Below, piece by piece: positions 9,237-26,677 of a stretch of 26,677 nt of DNA. The stretch covers positions 1 to 26,677 of the IMG/VR virus record IMGVR_UViG_3300011445_000548; one strand, written 5' to 3'. Source of the DNA: a virus. The notes under the pieces were generated by a model, which made no database searches, was not told where the DNA came from, and worked only from the letters and a program-made list of their open reading frames with translations. How positions within the stretch are numbered: position 1 is the stretch's first letter; every line of letters begins with the position of its first letter. The position numbers and the translations under genes are program-made.

Positions 9237-9719
9237 TTATTGAACTCCCATTAATTTGTTCTGCTCATCCCATTGCTTTTTGCGATCAATCATGTTCGCA
9301 ATAAGAGGATTCTTTTTCGGATCAAGATTTTCTTCCGATTCTTCATCATCAGCCGGTGGATCATTAATCGGCTCTTGACGACCAGTTTTCGGATTGAAGT
9401 TCAAAACCTTCGGATTCTTTTTGATTGCTCCGATGATCTTGTTGAATTGCGAATTCGGATCATCTTTGATGCAATCCGACTTCATCGAATCATCATTCAA
9501 GAATTCGAGTTTCAAAGCATTGACGGTATCTGGCGTGCAAATACCGTCAGTAACAAGATACTCCAAATCTTTCTCGCGCGATTGTTTCACCATGTTCACA
9601 AGAGCAGGTGTGACAACCGGCGGCGCTTTGACTTGATTCTTCTGCAAGTTTGCAATCAAGGTTTCCAAAGCTGTTTCATCTGCAACACCAAACTTTGCAC
9701 AAAGTTCTTGGAGCGGCAT
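9237..9719 (-). CDS. Probable nested scaffold protein (Nu3-like), 160 aa, same frame as protease
   Basis: Inside the protease gene, the ATG at 9719-9717 (residue 231 of the protease, MPLQELCAKFGVADETALE) is preceded by GAGGAG with a nine-base spacing, as good a ribosome site as any in the window. Starting here gives an acidic, helical 160-residue protein ending NKLMGVQ. Lambda makes its scaffold Nu3 from the 3' end of the protease gene C in the same way, and the neighbouring gpD- and gpE-like genes fit that arrangement. Scaffold role is inference from position and precedent. Confidence 0.6.
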   Translation of the reverse strand: MPLQELCAKFGVADETALETLIANLQKNQVKAPPVVTPALVNMVKQSREKDLEYLVTDGICTPDTVNALKLEFLNDDSMKSDCIKDDPNSQFNKIIGAIKKNPKVLNFNPKTGRQEPINDPPADDEESEENLDPKKNPLIANMIDRKKQWDEQNKLMGVQ

Positions 9720-10409
9720 ATCTTTTTTCTCCTCAAGAAAGTTCATAATCTGAGCAGGAAAACCCAGATTTGAGATTGAACCAGGGTCACGATAAATTGG
9801 AATAATCCCGTCGATTATTCCTGCTGCTAACGCTTGGTCAGCAGTATAATAAGCGTCGCTGTTCATAATAGCGCGACATTCTTCTTCTGTTTTCTTGATC
9901 TTGCTTGCCATTGTTTTGACAAGCATATCTTCTGCTACACGCAAACCTGCTGCAACTTTTTCATATTCAGCAGCGTCTTTATACCCATCCTGTCGAGCAA
10001 TTGGAGCATGAAACTTCATTACTCCATTCTCAACCATATAAATCTCATCTGCGGACAACGCAAGAACAGCAGCGGCAGAAATCGCAAATGGATTTATATA
10101 AGCGGTGACTTTCTTACCGCTGTTGCGAATCTTATTGTGCATCGTAATTGAATCAAGAAAATCACCGCCTTGTGAATTAATTACAAGAGTGATCTCATTT
10201 CCAGCATTTGCAACCTTTTCATCAAAATTAAACGGTTGCAAAATCATACCGTCGAAAGTGATGTTCTGAGGTCGCGTTGTTTCATTCGCGTACAACGCAC
10301 GCATCTGCTTCATACAATCAGCTTGCGAATCGTGAGTTCCGAATGCTTTATCGGAACCACGTTTCGTCAAATGGTATTTCTCACCAACTGCTTTGCATGT
10401 ATATGGCAT
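9237..10409 (-). CDS. ClpP-type prohead protease (S49/ClpP fold) with C-terminal scaffold, 390 aa
   Basis: Matures the prohead by cleaving scaffold and other head proteins. Residues about 50-210 are ClpP-like: VINSQGGD (77-83), nucleophile Ser111 in the AISAAAVLAL helix, His134 in MKFHAP, and Asp185 in SDAYYTADQALAAGIID. The first about 45 residues (MPYTCKAVGEKYHL, then MRALYANE) are a short domain often seen at the N-terminus of such proteases. The ATG at 10409 has AGGGG nine bases upstream; an in-frame start at 10472 would overlap the previous gene and add a Leu-rich leader without support. The C-terminal 160 residues can also be made separately as scaffold. Confidence 0.88.
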   Translation of the reverse strand: MPYTCKAVGEKYHLTKRGSDKAFGTHDSQADCMKQMRALYANETTRPQNITFDGMILQPFNFDEKVANAGNEITLVINSQGGDFLDSITMHNKIRNSGKKVTAYINPFAISAAAVLALSADEIYMVENGVMKFHAPIARQDGYKDAAEYEKVAAGLRVAEDMLVKTMASKIKKTEEECRAIMNSDAYYTADQALAAGIIDGIIPIYRDPGSISNLGFPAQIMNFLEEKKDMPLQELCAKFGVADETALETLIANLQKNQVKAPPVVTPALVNMVKQSREKDLEYLVTDGICTPDTVNALKLEFLNDDSMKSDCIKDDPNSQFNKIIGAIKKNPKVLNFNPKTGRQEPINDPPADDEESEENLDPKKNPLIANMIDRKKQWDEQNKLMGVQ

Positions 10410-10420
10410 TGGTTTATCCC

Positions 10421-11005
10421 CTAATTTGCGTAAATGAGAACTCGTGAATTGATGCAAGAGTAACAATAGCAACTTGAGTTATGGCAGGTAGTAAAACAAC
10501 TCAACCAACGACAACAAGGACAATTACAACCTGCACAACAACCATTCCCGCTACCTGCACCGCTGCTGGGGGCTAACGCAACAGATGGTGCAAGGTAGCA
10601 GGAGGTTCCAAGGAGTTCACCAGATAAAGGATCTTCTAATTTCAATTGACCGCAAAGAATCTGTCGCATTAACTTTCCGAACTCACGACGACTCTTATTA
10701 ACCTCTTTATCCTCAGACATTACTCGATTAACTCTACCGTCAAATAGGAGAGCACCACCAAGCAAAGTTGTGATAAATTCAACCATGTGGGGTACATGGT
10801 CAACAACGAAAGGAATATCATCAGTGTAACGCGTGAGTTGGAATCTACCGTTAACATAAGAAGTTGCGATCAAACAGAAGTAGTCAATTCGATCCTTGAT
10901 TTCTTTGTTGTTGATGTTATTAGTGTTCGAGAGATTCGCCCAACGAATAACATTCGTTTCTCCGAACACAATATTTAACTTCTCTTGTGAAGTGTAATTA
11001 GGCAT
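10421..11005 (-). CDS. Head-tail connector (Mu gp36/DUF1320-like) with Cys-rich tail, 194 aa
   Basis: Residues 1-130 fit the gp36/DUF1320 pattern: short N-terminal turn, helix with INNKEIKDRIDYFCLIATSYVN, GRFQLTRY, then the P-containing helix pair DHVPHMVEFITTLLGGALLFDG. Such proteins act as adaptors under the portal. The C-terminus is odd: after a Pro/Ala/Ser/Gly linker, 11 cysteines fall between residues 156 and 184. The start has AAGGAG seven bases upstream and overlaps the end of the portal gene by eight bases. Order between portal and protease is a little unusual. I trust the connector core more than the tail. Confidence 0.7.
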   Translation of the reverse strand: MPNYTSQEKLNIVFGETNVIRWANLSNTNNINNKEIKDRIDYFCLIATSYVNGRFQLTRYTDDIPFVVDHVPHMVEFITTLLGGALLFDGRVNRVMSEDKEVNKSRREFGKLMRQILCGQLKLEDPLSGELLGTSCYLAPSVALAPSSGAGSGNGCCAGCNCPCCRWLSCFTTCHNSSCYCYSCINSRVLIYAN

Positions 11006-14970: not shown

Positions 14971-17736
14971 TTATGCGATTACTGCGAGTTTACGTGTTGT
15001 TCCTGCTTTATCTCGAATTGTGATATAACCGTTCAATGTTTCACCAGCAAGAGCAGCAAATGTACCGAATTGGACTACACCTGCACCATCAATCATAAAT
15101 GTGTCACCAGTACCTAATTGACTTCCATACGCAATCTTGAATTTATCACCATCACTATTATCTACGCCCATATACCAAACAGAAGCACCAGTAACGCCAA
15201 AAGAAATATACGGATCACCTGAATTCAAATCCGCAACACTGATGTTTAACGCAGTACCATTATTCACTGTTGAATTGGATGTATTACTTATATAGGTATG
15301 AAATGTGGCACCACTTCTAGCACCTTGGAAAGTAAAACTTTGTCCAGATGCTGTCTCAAAAGCAGTAGCTCCAGCGCTGTCAACAGTCACATTAAAGTAG
15401 TTAGCAGCATTATACCCAATTCGTAATTGAGTAAGTGTATGAATCACTTGCAACTTGGCAGAAGCAGTCAAACTCCCAATTGCAACATTGCCGGTATTAT
15501 CAATACGAAAATCTACTGTTGGTGCGGATACAAGAGTATCCGTCATCCTGCCAATACCAAAACCAGCAGAATCAACTACAAATGATTTATATTTACCATT
15601 TACGCCACCACCTGTCCAACCAATAGTTACATTAACACCAACTTGTAAATTATTATCAAAGAATGATGCAACGCGATCACCTTCAAAAGGTGAACTTGTA
15701 CCGACTACAAATAGTTTAGAGCCTGTACCTGTAAGAGTACCAATAAGAACATTACCTCTCGCAGCAGTACCATCATGACAAAGAATTACATTCCCAGCAG
15801 TACCACTAGCAGAACTTCCGCCGACAATGCGAACGTCGCCACCTGCGGCGGCTCCTGTAGAATTAGTCCCATGAATTGTGTAAGAGGTTGGAGTTGCTCG
15901 CAAAATACCTTGACCAAAATAAATATCATTAATTGGTGATGAATCACTACCTGCAACAAAATGATTTGCTGAAGCATTATATACATTATAACCCATTCCA
16001 ATACCACTATCAACAGTTACATTAGCTCTACCTCCTATTCCAATACCCCCACAAACAGCAAGAGTGCCTATTGCAATAGCATATTGATTCGTAATAACCC
16101 CAGCACTATGCCCTATCGCTACAGAATAGGCGGACACACCGGCAGAATTAGCGCTATAACCAACGCATGTAGAACCATAACCAACAGCAGATGAATTTCG
16201 TCCTAACGCAACACTAAAACTATTTCCAGCACCAGTAGTAGCATTATTACCAACGGCAAGAGAGTCTTGACCTCTTGCAACGGCACCTTCACCAAATTGT
16301 TCAGAATTAGCACCAGTTAAACCTTTATGCGAGAACTCACCATTCTTTGTTATTCTCGCTCGCTCGCCGGGAAGTGATGCAGCTGGATTCCATTGAGCCA
16401 TATCTACTAATTGGCCAACTGCGAAATCTAATCGGTGACCAACTTTATTAGTAGATACTGCTTGATAAACAAATCCATTTATGTTTATAGAAGCGTCACC
16501 TGATCCAAAAAAGATCATTCCAGAATCATTTGCACTTTGTAGTGTTAGATAACCAGCATTACTTGTATAAATCTTACCTGTATGCGATCCAGCATAGCTT
16601 GTTATTTGAATTACAGGACCGCTAGTTATTCCACCATAACCATCTGTGAATTGAATTGAACTATTTGGATAACCTGATGCGCGACTATCGAAAGTGCCAC
16701 ATTTGAACGGTGCAAAAGCTGAATCATCTGCCAACTTGCATTCTAAAGCGGTGAGATTACGTTTGAGGGCGGGAAAAGCATTTGTGGTACCACCGAATTG
16801 CAAGCGGTTGAAATCCGCTTCTGCGTTATTAGTTAGTCGAATAACTCCATCTGCTGGTGATTTAATTATTGATAAACCTGTCCAATAAAAAGCGGATACA
16901 GCACCAGTTTGAATATGACTCCCGGCAGTAATAGTATTACTGGTAGTAATAGGGCCATCAGTGCCAATGCCGCCAGTAACTGAAAGAGCACCAGTTGCAG
17001 CAACTCGAAAAACAGTAGCATTCGCAGAATTCCGCACTTCAATCGCTGGTGCAGTTTGCGAAACTGCTAAATCAATTCGATGACCAGTAACGTCGAGAGC
17101 GGGAACCTTTTGATGTAATTGAGCAATAGCAGTTACTAAATCCCTTCCAAGAGCAACATTCCCAATATTTCCCCCAACACTTTCTATATGAACATGATCT
17201 AAACCACCGTTATTAATCTTCAATACTCCTGAATGATTATATATTTGCCAAGAATTTGATCCAGAACGAAGGTCGAGAGTGCCACCATTACCAGAAGTAG
17301 ATAAAAGTGTAATGGTAGGCCAATTACTACTTGTAACAGTAATATCACCATTTGCGGCAACCTTAAAACGATCACCACCACTTCCACCGCTACTATTGAC
17401 TTCAATTGCATTAGCAGTTTGACCGGCGGCGAGGTTTAACTTAATTCCAATAGTATTAGGTGGATTTAATACTATATTTCTAGCGGTAAGTTCTCCTTCT
17501 AATCCTACATTATTTCCTGTAACACCATAAACATAACTACCGCTTACACCATTAAATTGACCACTACCACCATTATATTGAAGTTGACCATCTAATCCAC
17601 CAGGCAATGTTACTGGAGCATCACCCCATAATGTTTCAGATGGATTTGCACCACGGCGCAATACTTGATTTGCTGATCCTGCTGTAGCAGGACCAAGAAA
17701 TACTTCACCACCGTATGCAAATGCTGGGAATTCCAT
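14971..17736 (-). CDS. Tail fibre/spike with YadA-head-like repeats, 921 aa
   Basis: Likely trimeric receptor-binding fibre. Residues 1-50 form a short N-terminal part (VLRRGANPSETLWGDAP). A module 'G-x-(K/R)-(L/I)-(N/D)-(L/F)-A-x-x-Q ... F-x-V-x-x-x-G' recurs at about 97-135, 218-255 and 433-470. Residues about 483-585 carry repeats such as DSLAVGNNAT, FSVALGRNSSAVGYGS and YSVAIGHSAG, typical of the left-handed parallel beta-roll of the YadA head. Further Gly-rich beta-helical stretches follow and the protein ends TLNGYITIRDKAGTTRKLAV. AGGAT precedes the ATG. The gene lies upstream of terminase rather than at the end of the tail genes. Confidence 0.85.
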   Translation of the reverse strand: MEFPAFAYGGEVFLGPATAGSANQVLRRGANPSETLWGDAPVTLPGGLDGQLQYNGGSGQFNGVSGSYVYGVTGNNVGLEGELTARNIVLNPPNTIGIKLNLAAGQTANAIEVNSSGGSGGDRFKVAANGDITVTSSNWPTITLLSTSGNGGTLDLRSGSNSWQIYNHSGVLKINNGGLDHVHIESVGGNIGNVALGRDLVTAIAQLHQKVPALDVTGHRIDLAVSQTAPAIEVRNSANATVFRVAATGALSVTGGIGTDGPITTSNTITAGSHIQTGAVSAFYWTGLSIIKSPADGVIRLTNNAEADFNRLQFGGTTNAFPALKRNLTALECKLADDSAFAPFKCGTFDSRASGYPNSSIQFTDGYGGITSGPVIQITSYAGSHTGKIYTSNAGYLTLQSANDSGMIFFGSGDASININGFVYQAVSTNKVGHRLDFAVGQLVDMAQWNPAASLPGERARITKNGEFSHKGLTGANSEQFGEGAVARGQDSLAVGNNATTGAGNSFSVALGRNSSAVGYGSTCVGYSANSAGVSAYSVAIGHSAGVITNQYAIAIGTLAVCGGIGIGGRANVTVDSGIGMGYNVYNASANHFVAGSDSSPINDIYFGQGILRATPTSYTIHGTNSTGAAAGGDVRIVGGSSASGTAGNVILCHDGTAARGNVLIGTLTGTGSKLFVVGTSSPFEGDRVASFFDNNLQVGVNVTIGWTGGGVNGKYKSFVVDSAGFGIGRMTDTLVSAPTVDFRIDNTGNVAIGSLTASAKLQVIHTLTQLRIGYNAANYFNVTVDSAGATAFETASGQSFTFQGARSGATFHTYISNTSNSTVNNGTALNISVADLNSGDPYISFGVTGASVWYMGVDNSDGDKFKIAYGSQLGTGDTFMIDGAGVVQFGTFAALAGETLNGYITIRDKAGTTRKLAVIA

Positions 17737-17747
17737 TACTGCTTATC

Positions 17748-17963
17748 CTATAGCATTGATGCAATTACTTTAATTGCAAAAATTCCGACGATCACGGCTA
17801 ACACTATCCACAAAATTGCAATTAGCCAAGGTGGAATTGTTACACCAAGTTGCTTCAAAATCACTACTACGATAGCTACAACTCCAGCTACTACGATGAT
17901 AAAGATCGCAAGCTGGATTAAAGAATAACCACCGAATGCTGCTTGGGCAAGTAGACTGAACAT
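17748..17963 (-). CDS. Small two-helix membrane protein, holin-like, 71 aa
   Basis: Two long hydrophobic helices (about residues 15-36, LIQLAIFIIVVAGVVAIVVV, and 46-69, LIAILWIVLAVIVGIFAIKV) are joined by a short KQLGVTIPP turn. I chose the ATG at 17963 because AAAGG lies eight bases upstream and because a terminator separates it from longer frames beginning upstream. Size and shape fit a holin or another small phage inner-membrane protein. No endolysin gene is adjacent, so the lysis role is only plausible. Confidence 0.7.
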   Translation of the reverse strand: MFSLLAQAAFGGYSLIQLAIFIIVVAGVVAIVVVILKQLGVTIPPWLIAILWIVLAVIVGIFAIKVIASML

Positions 17964-18001
17964 TGTAATTACCTTTCTCAAAAGTTTTCGAGAAACACTT
18001 G

Positions 18002-18051
18002 AGAAAAATAACCTGCCGCACTTGCTTCCTCGCGGGTACAAGTACGACAGG
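18002..18051 (-). terminator. Intrinsic terminator (minus strand only)
   Basis: On the minus strand CCTGTCGTACTTG (18051-18039) pairs with CAAGTGCGGCAGG (18024-18012) over 13 bp including two G-U pairs, followed by TTATTTTTCT. The wobbles would be A-C mismatches on the plus strand, which shows that selection acts on the minus-strand RNA. It lies between the 85-aa gene and the 71-aa membrane gene. Confidence 0.65.
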
Positions 18052-18055
18052 CGGG

Positions 18056-18065
18056 GTCTGCACAA
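18056..18065 (+). repeat. GTCTGCACAA word, opposite orientation
   Basis: Plus-strand copy of the repeated ten-base word, lying between two hairpins and not followed by a start codon. GGGG precedes it, as at 5569-5578. Confidence 0.35.
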
Positions 18066-18435: not shown

Positions 18436-18894
18436 TTACTTTTGATTTGAAAGTAAATGTTTCCAAGTTCGATTACACACTATTGAGTAGATACCACTTA
18501 TTCCAACACTGAATTCCTCAGCAAGTACACGAAGTAATTCACTTTCTTCCCAATACCTACGACGAATCTCGATTACTTGTTCCACTGTCAAAGATGACAC
18601 AGAACGTCCTTTCCTAAGCATGTCACCAGTATTGTCTTTTCTACTGCCTAAGAAAAGATGCGCAACATTTACACAAAGTGTATTATCACAAGTATGACAA
18701 ACTAATAAATTCTCATCAAAATCACCGTGTTTAAGCCAATAGGCATAACGATGTGCCTTTATATTTAATCCGCGTTCAAGGGAAAATATACCATAACCAT
18801 CATCATTACGGTAAGCAAGCCACTCCATGCAGCCTGTATTTGTTACTGGTCCAACTTTTTTCCAAAATCTCTGTTCTACCGTTAAGCGAGCCAT
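18436..18894 (-). CDS. HNH endonuclease (HNH_3 type), 152 aa
   Basis: Likely a homing endonuclease. The core is at residues 48-86: AHRYAYWLKHG, then LLVCHTCDNTLCVNVAHLFLGS, the usual 'C-H-x-C-D-N-x-x-C-x-N-x-x-H-L' signature of phage HNH_3 enzymes with metal-binding Cys/His. After it comes SLTVEQVIEIRRRY and a C-terminal helix-turn-helix (VLAEEFSVGISGIYSIVCNRTWKHL) for DNA recognition. It has its own GAGG about ten bases before the ATG and lies downstream of a terminator, as an independent cassette. It cuts DNA; target site unknown. Confidence 0.88.
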   Translation of the reverse strand: MARLTVEQRFWKKVGPVTNTGCMEWLAYRNDDGYGIFSLERGLNIKAHRYAYWLKHGDFDENLLVCHTCDNTLCVNVAHLFLGSRKDNTGDMLRKGRSVSSLTVEQVIEIRRRYWEESELLRVLAEEFSVGISGIYSIVCNRTWKHLLSNQK

Positions 18895-19006: not shown

Positions 19007-19255
19007 TTATTTCTTTGACTTCTCCTTAATATTTGGATGCTTTGCATAATACGCTTGCTTTCGGTATTCTTTAGCCGCTGCATACTTTTCTGCGGCGGTT
19101 AAAGGTTTGTGTAATGATCCAGAACAAGACCTACTAACTGTAGGTTGGGAATATACTGGTTGTCACCTTCCATTCCTGCAAATAACATTTGTAGCTGCGT
19201 CAGCAGCGGCAAGAAAGAAGATAACAAACATTAGAAATAAAGGGATCTTCAACAT
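19007..19255 (-). pseudogene. Small exported protein ORF with in-frame TGA
   Basis: From ATG 19255 (GGAGG then TCTGCACAA upstream) the frame encodes a signal peptide, MLKIPLFLMFVIFFLAAADA, then ATNVICRNGR and a TGA at 19165-19163 (30 aa). The same frame then stays open for 51 codons to TAA at 19009-19007, ending in a helix-like AEKYAAAKEYRKQAYYAKH and a Lys-rich tail. The second part has no ATG, GTG or TTG, so it could only be made by readthrough. Either this is a one-base loss of a Cys/Trp/Arg/Gly codon, a sequencing error, or recoding. A 6-bp hairpin (19129-19145) begins 18 bases after the TGA. A terminator follows the TAA. Confidence 0.6.
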
Positions 19256-19279: not shown

Positions 19280-19588
19280 TTAGTTTCCAAAGAACGATTG
19301 CGAGGAAAACGATTGACTACTGAACGACTGTTGAAAGCCACCACCAAATCCACCGAATCCACCAAAGCTATTACCGAAGCAATGACTTTGCGGAATAACA
19401 AGAATTTGTGGACGTGAGCGGAAACTGAAATCGTCGAAACTTCGTGAGCGTTGAACAACAACTTCACGCCGAACATTGACAGAACGTGAAAATCCACCAA
19501 AACGTGGTGGACGTGGCCATGCTTGAATATCATTCGTAATTACGAATGACGCAAGCAAAGTAACAGCGAGAATGAAGAACTTCTTCAT
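19280..19588 (-). CDS. Exported Gly/Ser/Phe-rich small protein, 102 aa
   Basis: The ATG at 19588 has AAGGAG ten bases upstream and gives a classic signal peptide (MKKFFILAVTLLASFVITND, cleavage probably after IQA). The mature part is basic and aromatic: PRPPRFGGFSRS, an Arg/Ser stretch, one Cys, a Gly/Phe run (FGGFGGFGGGF), then SSQSFSSQSF repeats. It looks disordered or fibre-like and secreted or surface bound. I do not recognise a family. It follows the 303-aa cytochrome-like gene by 16 bases. Confidence 0.7.
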   Translation of the reverse strand: MKKFFILAVTLLASFVITNDIQAWPRPPRFGGFSRSVNVRREVVVQRSRSFDDFSFRSRPQILVIPQSHCFGNSFGGFGGFGGGFQQSFSSQSFSSQSFFGN

Positions 19589-19604: not shown

Positions 19605-20516
19605 TTACTGGTTGGGGTTAATTTGAGGTGCAGGTGGAACAACATCATTTTCTGGAAGTTGGGCGGCTACTGGTTGTGAAAGTTCCAGAAGTTCATTTAA
19701 TACTTCTCCTGCTTCGCCAGGAGTAAGACTCCCATCGGGAGGCATACGAACTTTCGGATCATTTGATTTGATTCTAATAATAGCTTCTCTGAAAATTTCA
19801 GGTGAAATAGCACGATCAAGAACTAATTCACCTTTTGGTTCAGTGAGGGTTGAACTATGACATTTCAGACAGCGTGATGAGATTACACTATTTGATTGAA
19901 GTTGTGTCTGTTGACCTTTTTGGAAATAAGGTGCTTGAATTGGTGATGAAGATTGTTGAGATTTACCGTCAGCTTGAATTGGAGAATTCGGATCAGAAGA
20001 TTGCTGTTGTTGATCGACTCTCCAATTTCCATTACTCTCTTGATAAATACGTAATGAAATAGAAGATCGCTGCGCAGGAGCAGATTGGGATAATCCAGCA
20101 GCTTCTAAGAGCTGAATTGCTGCAGCGCTTCTGATAAGAGGTTCGTTCAAATGAGATTGTAATTGAAGCTGCGTGCTGGCTAATTGATTATAACCGTTTA
20201 CTGCGAGTTGTGAACTCTGGATACTGGCACGGCTGAAATCAGCAGCTTGGCGAAATAACTCAGCAGGTGAAACCGAATACTGAGTCGATGCTTGTTGATA
20301 AGAATAGACTGTATTTCCTTGAGCAGCTATTGGTGCAGGATAAGAATTTTGCACAACTAAAATATTCGGTTGTGCAATTTGCGCAGCAGGTACATACTGA
20401 ACAACTGGTGCTCTATAATAAATGCAAGAGCTACCAAATCGACGACAACGATTACAAGCATCTGAAGTTGCAGATGAAACCAAAAGTAAAAGTAATGCGA
20501 GGATTGCAAGTTTCAT
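19605..20516 (-). CDS. Exported c-type cytochrome-like protein, 303 aa
   Basis: Signal peptide MKLAILALLLLLVSSATSDA, then a Cys cluster (CNRCRRFGSSC, residues 21-31), a long Gln/Ser/Ala-rich helical or disordered region (about 40-210), and a C-terminal cytochrome c domain with haem motif CLKCH (216-220) and probable axial Met in VRMPPDG (M258), followed by a helix LTPGEAGEVLNELLEL. This CxxCH...MPPDG layout is common in Planctomycetota cytochromes. Haem attachment would occur outside the cytoplasmic membrane. The ATG overlaps the TGA of the upstream HNH gene (ATGA) and has AAGGA. Unusual cargo for a phage. Confidence 0.8.
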   Translation of the reverse strand: MKLAILALLLLLVSSATSDACNRCRRFGSSCIYYRAPVVQYVPAAQIAQPNILVVQNSYPAPIAAQGNTVYSYQQASTQYSVSPAELFRQAADFSRASIQSSQLAVNGYNQLASTQLQLQSHLNEPLIRSAAAIQLLEAAGLSQSAPAQRSSISLRIYQESNGNWRVDQQQQSSDPNSPIQADGKSQQSSSPIQAPYFQKGQQTQLQSNSVISSRCLKCHSSTLTEPKGELVLDRAISPEIFREAIIRIKSNDPKVRMPPDGSLTPGEAGEVLNELLELSQPVAAQLPENDVVPPAPQINPNQ

Positions 20517-21091
20517 ATAAGTTCCTTATTTTCAGGAAGGACAACTAAATTTTGGTTACTACGCGCACGTCGCTTACCCAACCAATAGTCATTCACAGTC
20601 TGATATGAAATATCAAAGCGCAAAGCAACCGATCTTTGCGATTCACCATTCTCAACACATTTAATAATTTCTCTCACTTCTTCATCTGAAACAGTGCAAT
20701 TGGAATTAGCTTCACCATGACTATTTCTTAATCCAAGTTTGAAAGCGTGCTTATGATTTTCTCCATAAGTACACCACTCTAAATTAGATTTAGAATTGTT
20801 TTGTTTATTTCCATCTTTGTGATTAACTGTTAATTCAGGTTGAAATCCTGACACAAAAGCCATTGCCACAAGACGATGGACAAGGAAAAACTTTCGTGGA
20901 GAATTTAATACTCTTAATCCAACTCTTAGATATCCAGCATTATCTCGACTTGGACTCATTTGAGTCCACCATCTTTCGATCCCTCTTTTATTACTTCTTT
21001 TACTGCAAACGGTTCCATCACTCCCAACTATATAGTCAGGATAACCTTCGATGATCTTAAATTCAACTCCATCTACTTCTGGCAAATCCAC
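20513..21091 (-). CDS. HNH homing endonuclease with NUMOD4-like N-terminus, 192 aa
   Basis: Residues 9-45 look like NUMOD4 (EFKIIEGYPDYIVGSDGTVCSKR), followed by FFLVHRLVAMAFV (69-80) and the HNH core VNHKDGNKQNNSKSNLEWCT (89-108, His91 and Asn103 visible), then a C-terminal helix-turn-helix (VSDEEVREIIKCVENGESQR... VNDYWLGKRR) for DNA binding. The start is GTG at 21091 with AGGAGA upstream in the tail of the previous gene; the stop TGA overlaps the next ATG. It sits tightly between two cytochrome-like genes without breaking either, as free-standing homing endonucleases do. Confidence 0.88.
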   Translation of the reverse strand: MDLPEVDGVEFKIIEGYPDYIVGSDGTVCSKRSNKRGIERWWTQMSPSRDNAGYLRVGLRVLNSPRKFFLVHRLVAMAFVSGFQPELTVNHKDGNKQNNSKSNLEWCTYGENHKHAFKLGLRNSHGEANSNCTVSDEEVREIIKCVENGESQRSVALRFDISYQTVNDYWLGKRRARSNQNLVVLPENKELI

Positions 21092-21093
21092 AA

Positions 21094-22593
21094 TTAATTC
21101 TCCTGCTTTTTTCTGGTGAGACTTACTTGCAATGCCATATCAGCATATACATGCTCATAATCGCTTCTATTTACTGAAATTCCTGCTTTCAAACTTCCTA
21201 CTACTGGATCGACGGCTTCACCTTCTCCAATTACAAATTCATCAAGTGAGTGAAGTCCTAACTCCAAAGCTGCTTTCTGCGGACTCACAACATCATATCT
21301 ATAATTAGCATAGATTTCAGATATGTGATTACTTACCGCGACAACAGGTGATACTTCATCAGGATATGAGTCTTGCGTTATTTTATAAACAGCAGCTTTA
21401 TAATCACGTCTCGCTCTACCAAGTGGCGCGTCAGGAAGATCAGGTTGACCAGAATAAAGTCCGGCAAGTCTGTCAATAATTGCTTCTCTTGAATTATTAA
21501 CATCTACTAAATCGGTAAAGACATCAAGTTTAGAAGTAAGGAGAGTTTGAACGTCATTTGGCAACGGATGATAACCATCGAACGGACCATGACATCTAAT
21601 ACAAGAAATTGCTGGCTGTAGGTTTTTAGTGTGTGGTGCAGGAACTAAATGATCGGCAGCAATATCAGGAGGAACTGCATCTTGAAAATTCCCTTTATTA
21701 TCAAAGAGGGCAAAAACGTGCATTCCATTTGCTTTCTGCACAATCACTTCTCTCGCTTTATCTTGAAAGGCTAAAAGATTTCTAAGTGGATGAGCTTCAA
21801 CTTGAACATCATTATCTGAAATATCATGAGTAATTGTTGCAAGTGCTCCTCGACGACCTAATCCATACAAAATATCCGCCCGACGTGCTTTTGAAGTCAC
21901 ATTTGAACGGAAAATAGCAATCCTTTCATCACCACTTATTAACTTAGTTTGTTCTTCAAATACACCTAAACTAGCTAAAAATACTCCTTGCGGTGTTCTA
22001 TTCTTTTCTACAACTCTTTGAATTTGCAAAAATTCGTAATAAGCTCCACCTTCTAATGTCGAAAGAGCTTTAGCAATAAACCAATCTCCCCTGTATATGC
22101 CACCGGATGATAGGTTTAATCCAGCTAATGCTACTGCTTCTGGTTGTTTCAAATGTGGTCCGAGTATTGCAGCAGGTAATTTGCTCACCCCCAGGGTAGA
22201 TGATGAGATATGAAAATAAGAATCCTGTAATGCAAGTGAGTCCCACGTCTGAATTAACTTCGCTAATTGCTGTGGTGAAGGTGCAAGACGACGAAGATCA
22301 TACCGCAATAACCATCCGTTTGCACATTCAGCACCTAATTGAATTACTGACGAATGAGATACTGCGGTATTGATTGTGAAATTTATTGCAGCTATCCATC
22401 GCTTATCGCCAAATGAAGGTATCCATATATACCGTTGAAATGGTCGATCTGATGCTTGGATGAGAGCTAAATCCGCAAGCGCCCAACCCGTAGCATCAGC
22501 AGGCGTCGGTATTCTTGCTGGTGTTGGCTCCTGTGTAATTCCCGGTAAAACAAATAGCGCGCTCACTACAATTATTGTGCAGACCACTCTCAC
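21094..22593 (-). CDS. Exported c-type cytochrome domain protein, 499 aa
   Basis: GTG start with AAGGAG ten bases upstream; signal peptide MRVVCTIIVVSALFVLPGIT. Two parts follow. Residues 50-270 carry RYIWIPSF, WLLRYDLRRLAP and YRGDWFIAKAL, and 285-345 carry EVIVQKANGMHVFALFDNKG followed by AISCIRCHGPFD with one haem motif CIRCH (331-335). This order ('L-R-x-D-L', 'R-A-D-W-F', 'N-G-L-x-x-x-L-x-x-x-x-G', 'G-x-S-C-x-x-C-H') matches a group of large secreted cytochrome proteins I know mainly from Planctomycetota. No clear Met ligand is seen; His/other ligation possible. Role in the phage is unknown. Confidence 0.8.
   Translation of the reverse strand: MRVVCTIIVVSALFVLPGITQEPTPARIPTPADATGWALADLALIQASDRPFQRYIWIPSFGDKRWIAAINFTINTAVSHSSVIQLGAECANGWLLRYDLRRLAPSPQQLAKLIQTWDSLALQDSYFHISSSTLGVSKLPAAILGPHLKQPEAVALAGLNLSSGGIYRGDWFIAKALSTLEGGAYYEFLQIQRVVEKNRTPQGVFLASLGVFEEQTKLISGDERIAIFRSNVTSKARRADILYGLGRRGALATITHDISDNDVQVEAHPLRNLLAFQDKAREVIVQKANGMHVFALFDNKGNFQDAVPPDIAADHLVPAPHTKNLQPAISCIRCHGPFDGYHPLPNDVQTLLTSKLDVFTDLVDVNNSREAIIDRLAGLYSGQPDLPDAPLGRARRDYKAAVYKITQDSYPDEVSPVVAVSNHISEIYANYRYDVVSPQKAALELGLHSLDEFVIGEGEAVDPVVGSLKAGISVNRSDYEHVYADMALQVSLTRKKQEN
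22575..22584 (-). repeat. GTCTGCACAA word inside a signal-peptide coding start
   Basis: Here the word lies at codons 4-7 of the 499-aa cytochrome gene (GTC TGC ACA A), ten bases after the start codon rather than before it. Confidence 0.3.
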
Positions 22594-22607: not shown

Positions 22608-23300
22608 TTACATTAGTAACTCTCCGGCGCGAGGTTGTGAAGGAACTGAGTTGAAAAGATCAACAAACTGCTCTGCATTAATTCCCTTCTCTTGCATATT
22701 TGTTGAAGTTGAAGGTAAGAGTTGATCTCTGTCGAGACGGCAAGCTGTCATTAACTCCGAAATACTATTATTCAAATTGAGACTTACAGACTCAGCTAAT
22801 TGGTCGTCACCGCTAATTCGACTGATGCTCTGTTTGACGAGAACAGGGATATTAACGACGATTGTTCTGAGGGCGCTCTTGTCAATATCAATAGTAGAGG
22901 CGTCTTTAATAAGACGAGTTACTTGGTGAACTGTTTCAATAAGAGACTTGCTCTTTGATTCGATAGTAGCAATTGCTGTCATTACATTAGTAAGAATATT
23001 TTTATCAATTGCATTTCCAGAATTCAGATTTGCAACTTCAAGAAACTTATTTAATATTTGAATAGCCTTGAAATAGGATTCAGCTTGTTGAGTAAGAGCA
23101 TACCGAGCAATTGAAATTTCTCGATTCGCTTGGAATATATTTGCCTCATCTATATCTTGATGAAGATATAGGGTAAGATTCTCTTGTAAAGATTGCTCGA
23201 AATTAGATTCAATTGCTGTCATTGCATTTTCCACGATAATTGGAACTACTGAATTAATTACTGCCGGAGGGGTAAAAATGTCATGTTCGCCAATGCTCAT
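22608..23300 (-). CDS. Helical protein of unknown function, 230 aa
   Basis: First gene after the leader at 23548-23301 and 15 bases before the 499-aa cytochrome gene, so co-transcribed with it. Almost entirely helical with Ile/Val/Asn/Ser-rich heptad-like stretches (VINSVVPIIVENAMTAIESN, ILTNVMTAIATIESKSKSLI) and no membrane helix or catalytic motif. No good Shine-Dalgarno precedes the ATG at 23300, so the true start is uncertain. Could be a structural, regulatory or terminase-small-like protein, but I see no HTH; function unknown. Confidence 0.65.
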   Translation of the reverse strand: MSIGEHDIFTPPAVINSVVPIIVENAMTAIESNFEQSLQENLTLYLHQDIDEANIFQANREISIARYALTQQAESYFKAIQILNKFLEVANLNSGNAIDKNILTNVMTAIATIESKSKSLIETVHQVTRLIKDASTIDIDKSALRTIVVNIPVLVKQSISRISGDDQLAESVSLNLNNSISELMTACRLDRDQLLPSTSTNMQEKGINAEQFVDLFNSVPSQPRAGELLM

Positions 23301-24819: not shown

Positions 24820-24864
24820 GTAGAAACAAAAACACGCTGGCGGGAGAATTCTCCCGCCAGCGTG
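24820..24864 (-). terminator. Intrinsic terminator with 16-bp perfect arms
   Basis: CACGCTGGCGGGAGAA (24833-24848) is followed at once by its exact complement TTCTCCCGCCAGCGTG (24849-24864), a 32-base perfect palindrome; on the minus strand TTTTTGTTTCTAC follows. It lies 19 bases after the 238-aa gene. Confidence 0.85.
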
Positions 24865-26537: not shown

Positions 26538-26586
26538 TTAGGGTTTCCCCAATAATTCCGAACACACGCACGGACGATGACCGCCC

Positions 26587-26640
26587 ACTAATTGCAGCAC
26601 TAATTGCAGCACTAATTGCAGCATTAATTGCAGCATTAAT
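26587..26640. repeat. 12-base tandem repeats (iteron-like)
   Basis: Three perfect copies of ACTAATTGCAGC (26587-26622), one with a single change (ATTAATTGCAGC, 26623-26634), then a decayed copy; further TAATTC half-units continue to the window end. Confidence 0.75.
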
Positions 26641-26677
26641 TCAATTAGCACTCTAATTCCTAATTCAAGCCTAATAA

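Follow-up and report, generated by a model that had tools for sequence, protein, structure and literature searches.

We found a block of three genes, two for predicted exported proteins with c-type-haem motifs (termed CytA and CytB here) and one for a small predicted exported protein, in the same order in 17 phage lineages, many of them otherwise unrelated, on contigs of 20 kb up to a 595-kb genome. The block often lies beside a protease gene, and it looks like an undescribed phage tool that acts in the host's cell envelope. The starting point was a 26,677-nt stretch of viral DNA (IMG/VR virus record IMGVR_UViG_3300011445_000548, positions 1 to 26,677; hereafter the window). The original prediction described two same-strand genes for exported c-type cytochrome-like proteins close to holin-like and tail genes, and this observation was confirmed. 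The interpretation attached to it, that the phage supplies envelope redox or haem-binding proteins, perhaps to keep respiration going, alter the cell surface or exclude other phages, was supported only in part, as detailed below.

The three-gene locus in the window

Both ORFs are on the minus strand. CytA (21094-22593) is a 499-aa protein with a GTG start preceded by an AGGAG ribosome-binding site, and it carries one CxxCH motif, CIRCH at residue 331 (21589-21603, minus strand). CytB (19605-20516) is a 303-aa protein with CLKCH at residue 216 and a downstream RMPPDG; the PSCyt1-like domain from CLKCH to MPPDG occupies 19731-19871 (minus strand). Both have signal-peptide-like N-termini, although export was judged from the N-terminal sequence and a crude rule only. 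The description of the neighborhood also held: a small ORF with strongly hydrophobic segments lies at 17748-18065 (minus strand; holin-like by hydrophobicity only, with no PHROG match), and a 921-aa fiber-like gene at 14971-17736.

Two genes at this locus had been overlooked. An HNH endonuclease gene of the homing type (20513-21091, minus strand; HNH_3 1.7e-8, phrog_59 9.9e-44) lies between CytA and CytB. It is not part of the cassette elsewhere, since no HNH gene was found between the two genes in the other members except an HNH-like ORF on the opposite strand in one record (L079). A second HNH gene at 18436-18894 (minus strand) lies on the other side of CytB and the small gene, and such homing endonucleases may help spread this region. 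The third gene of the cassette (19280-19588, minus strand) directly follows CytB and encodes a low-complexity protein of 102 aa with a signal-peptide-like MKKFF start and an AGGAG ribosome-binding site. It is directly followed by a 30-aa ORF (19163-19255, minus strand) that is almost only a signal peptide and has a GGAGG ribosome-binding site; its membership in the cassette is uncertain.

A terminator-like hairpin is present downstream (18978-18947), and a second strong one upstream (23653-23624), both on the minus strand. The 230-aa ORF directly upstream of CytA (22608-23300, minus strand; no family match), CytA, HNH, CytB and the small gene therefore look like one transcription unit. A weak promoter-like match at 23581-23552 helps to bound this unit, but promoter-like matches in this region are no more frequent than in shuffled sequences. 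The strongest terminator-like site in the scanned region is a perfect 14-bp-stem palindrome followed by a T-run at 24833-24864, and a tandem 12-bp repeat, CACTAATTGCAG, is found near the window end (26586-26645). An Rfam search of the window returned nothing.

Two conditions that would have undermined the original prediction, a chimeric contig and a lack of CxxCH conservation in homologs, were examined and neither held. The window carries terminase, portal and major head protein genes, and all 26,677 bases are 100% identical to part of a 57,461-base IMG/VR phage contig that also encodes DNA polymerase A, primase and helicase. A third contig (27,592 bases) holds the identical locus over the 13.6 kb compared. 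No integrase appeared in the families covered for 46 ORFs of the 57-kb contig, among them 25 of 31 PHROG families. The cassette is flanked by phage genes in 17 lineages, one of them a contig that closes on itself. An assembly artefact joining host DNA to a phage contig, suggested only by the unexpectedness of such proteins in phages, is thus refuted.

Distribution and neighbors of the cassette

Scans of viral contigs and of one phage collection detected CytA relatives in 17 lineages after merging records of the same virus: the window; contigs of 176 kb (G003) and 146 kb (G004); a 33.6-kb contig (G005/L048); a 163-kb contig (G007; IMG/VR 3300027819_000007) with G006; a 27-kb contig (G009); the 595-kb LR756511; 341-kb L068; 408-kb L070; and eight further records (L071, L073, L074, L075, L076, L077, L078, and L079). 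G006 spans the two ends of G007, so G007 is a closed molecule. A scan of 84,980 genomes with two CytA patterns yielded no close cellular copy, although these patterns would miss the LR756511-like type. The only hit among genome contigs (QZIP01000023.1), binned in Candidatus Parcubacteria MAG SURF_62, was rejected as cellular because it carries terminase- and portal-like genes and is also an IMG/VR virus record; its binning is probably an error rather than a host link. A plasmid search with CytA and CytB of G004 gave no match. LR756511 encodes a second, lone CytA relative (CIACH) at about 361.7-362.8 kb (9713-10891 of the extracted locus), without CytB beside it.

In all 17 lineages CytA is followed on the same strand by CytB and then by a small secreted protein (predicted) rich in V, R, Q, F, N or G. 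Extra genes are inserted in a few: HNH in the window, and short ORFs in G005, G007, and L079. CytB, which was not used to find these loci, keeps one CxxCH in 17/17 and a C-terminal Met-Pro in 16/17, with Cys-Pro-Pro at this place in L077, which is more than chance. CytA also keeps CxxCH in 17/17. This count is partly biased, since the last scan used the motif as one of its two patterns, but six lineages (G003, G004, G005/L048, G007, G009, and LR756511) were found by patterns or searches that do not require it. CytA and CytB distances are correlated (Mantel r 0.81, p 0.0001, n 17), as expected if the two genes travel together.

The carriers otherwise have little in common. A tblastn search of 29 window proteins against G003, G004 and G005 found only CytA and CytB. 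All-against-all blastp of seven whole contigs gave four groups (the window phage; G003 and G004; G005 and G006/G007; G009), and the genes shared between groups are CytA and CytB plus a few weak hits. In the larger set, compared over flanking DNA only, L070 joins G003/G004, L075 and L078 share head-type genes with G009, L068 joins LR756511, and single proteases or CAP genes are shared by a few pairs. We concluded that the cassette has moved between phages or been taken up repeatedly.

Proteases of several unrelated families recur beside the cassette: subtilase S8 in G005, G007, L073, L074, and L076; S8/S53-like in G009, L075, and L079; papain-like in LR756511 (below the Pfam cut-off) and L068; matrixin in L071; astacin in L078 with a relative in L077; and trypsin-like in L070. 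A search of 17 whole records with the subtilase profile found eight records with exactly one match each (the G009 match is below cut-off and runs off the contig), and all eight lie within 3 kb of the cassette. The product of chances under uniform placement is about 2e-7; this is a post hoc test, but the effect is large. Ten of 13 proteases examined have no hydrophobic N-terminal segment, two have one, and one start is unclear. Leaderless enzymes near small membrane proteins are what a lysis region looks like, and endolysins likewise lack a signal peptide, but the membrane proteins found in several lineages are holin-like by hydrophobicity only, with one weak PHROG holin match. In L071 a matrixin with a weak peptidoglycan-binding match follows a two-TM protein and directly precedes CytA. 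CAP-domain genes lie near the cassette in L070, L075, and L076, and in several phages the cassette lies among structural genes.

The main gap in this argument is that no protease and no endolysin were recognized among 46 ORFs of the window's own 57-kb phage. No protease was found beside the cassette in the window, G003 or G004. The absence of a recognized endolysin may reflect divergence. G004 does encode a matrixin-like protease next to a secreted protein whose N-terminus resembles that of the window's CytB (81712-82221 and 82539-83453), but about 27 kb away from the cassette.

Haem motifs and the planctomycete link

The last part of CytB resembles PSCyt1 (PF07635; curated cut-off 22 bits). 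The window protein scored 18.7 bits by itself, or 24 when neighboring matches in the frame were counted; two relatives scored 22.4 and 25.0 bits, and others 15-18 bits. CytA matched no Pfam, PHROG or NCBIfam family and no PDB sequence, and CytB gave only chance-level hits in the PDB sequence search. AlphaFold models of CytA and CytB from four sequences had pLDDT of about 39 and were not used for fold searches. The LR756511 form of CytA is homologous (24.6% identity over 73%, E 2e-18) to part of a 1157-aa 'c-type cytochrome' from a Neorhizobium petrolearium plasmid (WP_227705619), which also has ordinary cytochrome c domains and is encoded next to a ferredoxin reductase-family gene.

Across the 17 CytA sequences the only invariant His is that of CxxCH and no Met is conserved, while Y185, R237, D257, E282, and D314 are invariant. 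We infer from this alignment an open or weakly ligated haem and hence possible catalysis. The lack of a profile match and of a conserved axial partner in CytA could also mean that the CxxCH motifs are structural or metal-binding and that the proteins are not cytochromes, since haem binding rests on motifs. We consider this very unlikely, given exactly one strictly conserved CxxCH in each of two predicted exported proteins, the PSCyt1 match and Met-Pro in CytB, and the fusion of a cellular CytA homolog to cytochrome c domains.

TIGR02996, a domain named after Gemmata obscuriglobus, is above cut-off in G007 and in the records of L073 and L077, weakly matched in LR756511, and absent from 14 control genomes. 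G007 alone has about 15 matches, an unusual expansion in a phage. Together with PSCyt1 this points to Planctomycetota or relatives as hosts of these phages; for the window's phage the host is an inference drawn from other phages of the set. PSCyt proteins are also found in Verrucomicrobia, with unknown function (PMC5615132). Planctomycetes of the Gemmata group may have proteins like CytA. The original prediction was supported as to phage-borne proteins with export signals and c-type-haem motifs and a planctomycete link, but corrected in that this is a conserved three-gene cassette of many phages rather than two stray cytochromes, and that CytA belongs to no curated family.

Possible roles and comparison with known systems

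Our tentative best explanation is that the three products are secreted into the envelope of the host, probably a planctomycete or related bacterium, where the host's cytochrome c maturation system would attach haem. In this view CytB is the electron carrier (His/Met c-haem), CytA is its one-haem, probably catalytic working partner, and the small protein is a wall- or surface-associated element. The cassette would be part of the late envelope-attack and release equipment, and the protease beside it in most lineages, usually leaderless, would take the place of an endolysin. What the data establish is the cassette, its order and conservation, its presence in otherwise unrelated phages, and the protease neighbors. 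Export, haem loading, host, the redox partnership, timing, and the role in breaking the envelope are inferred, and gene neighborhood does not prove joint action. A bolder version, in which a haem enzyme, its electron carrier and a wall-binding protein act chemically on the unusual planctomycete envelope together with an interchangeable protease that replaces the endolysin, is not excluded by the evidence but remains doubtful.

Surface remodeling or superinfection exclusion is a less likely alternative, in which the trio coats or modifies the host surface so that other phages cannot adsorb or inject, and the proteases clip surface receptors. The export signals on all three products, the low-complexity, surface-like small protein, and the patchy spread expected of a mobile accessory are in agreement with it. 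However, a fixed association of two haem proteins is not needed for exclusion, the cassette lies among late/structural genes in several phages, and most neighboring proteases lack a signal peptide. Respiratory or oxidative-stress support, in which CytB and CytA feed or drain electrons in the periplasm (for instance for peroxide removal) to keep the host energized during infection, appears similarly unlikely. The conserved His/Met site of CytB and the Neorhizobium fusion protein with its reductase-family neighbor favor it, but keeping respiration going was not specifically supported, because no oxidase, dehydrogenase, quinone-linked or other respiratory partner gene was recognized beside the cassette, where proteases and CAP proteins recur, and it leaves the low-complexity third protein unexplained. 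Still less likely, the cassette may mimic or replace a planctomycete envelope-protein set and build rather than break the wall, for example to keep infected cells intact during the long growth of large phages. The PSCyt1 and TIGR02996 links, the low-complexity third protein and the large genomes of several carriers fit this reading, whereas the neighboring proteases, the presence of the cassette in small phages and the absence of a close cellular copy in the pattern scan described above speak against it.

A fixed set of two predicted exported haem proteins and a small secreted protein, kept through deep divergence (CytA down to 18% identity) and shared by phages that otherwise have little in common, must do something important in infection. 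If it belongs to host-cell breakdown, it would be a route of phage release combining redox chemistry and proteases, in hosts (Planctomycetota) whose wall was long thought to be proteinaceous and where peptidoglycan was shown only later (PMC4432640). The cassette is also a ready sequence marker for phages of such hosts, and it makes the unexplained abundance of PSCyt proteins in these bacteria directly testable with a small, defined gene set. To our knowledge no phage system built on c-type cytochromes has been described, and searches of open-access literature found no phage-encoded cytochrome c and no such lysis cassette. While its parts touch known families, we regard the system as new in kind, with the reservation that host copies of the same set, if found, would make it a phage-borne form of an undescribed host system.

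Among known systems, PSCyt1 resembles the C-terminal domain of CytB, with the whole profile covered from CxxCH to Met-Pro. CytB differs in its long secreted helical or low-complexity N-terminal part, which is not among the PSD/PSCyt2 architectures described for PVC bacteria (PMC5615132), and in always coming with CytA. The Neorhizobium protein shares homology with one CytA form but has added cytochrome c domains and no CytB/small-protein pair annotated beside it. Phage lysis cassettes (holin, endolysin, spanin) are similar in their late-gene position, in the neighboring, mostly leaderless wall- or protein-cutting enzymes of interchangeable families that most lineages have, and in the small membrane proteins near the cassette in several, although neither kind of enzyme was recognized in the window's phage; here, however, the conserved core is two predicted exported haem proteins and a low-complexity protein, not the enzyme. 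The cytochrome b5 encoded by giant viruses (PMC11814380) is likewise a virus-borne electron-transfer haem protein, but it is a single gene with non-covalent b-type haem in eukaryotic hosts, whereas the cassette is a fixed three-gene set of bacterial viruses with c-type motifs and export signals.
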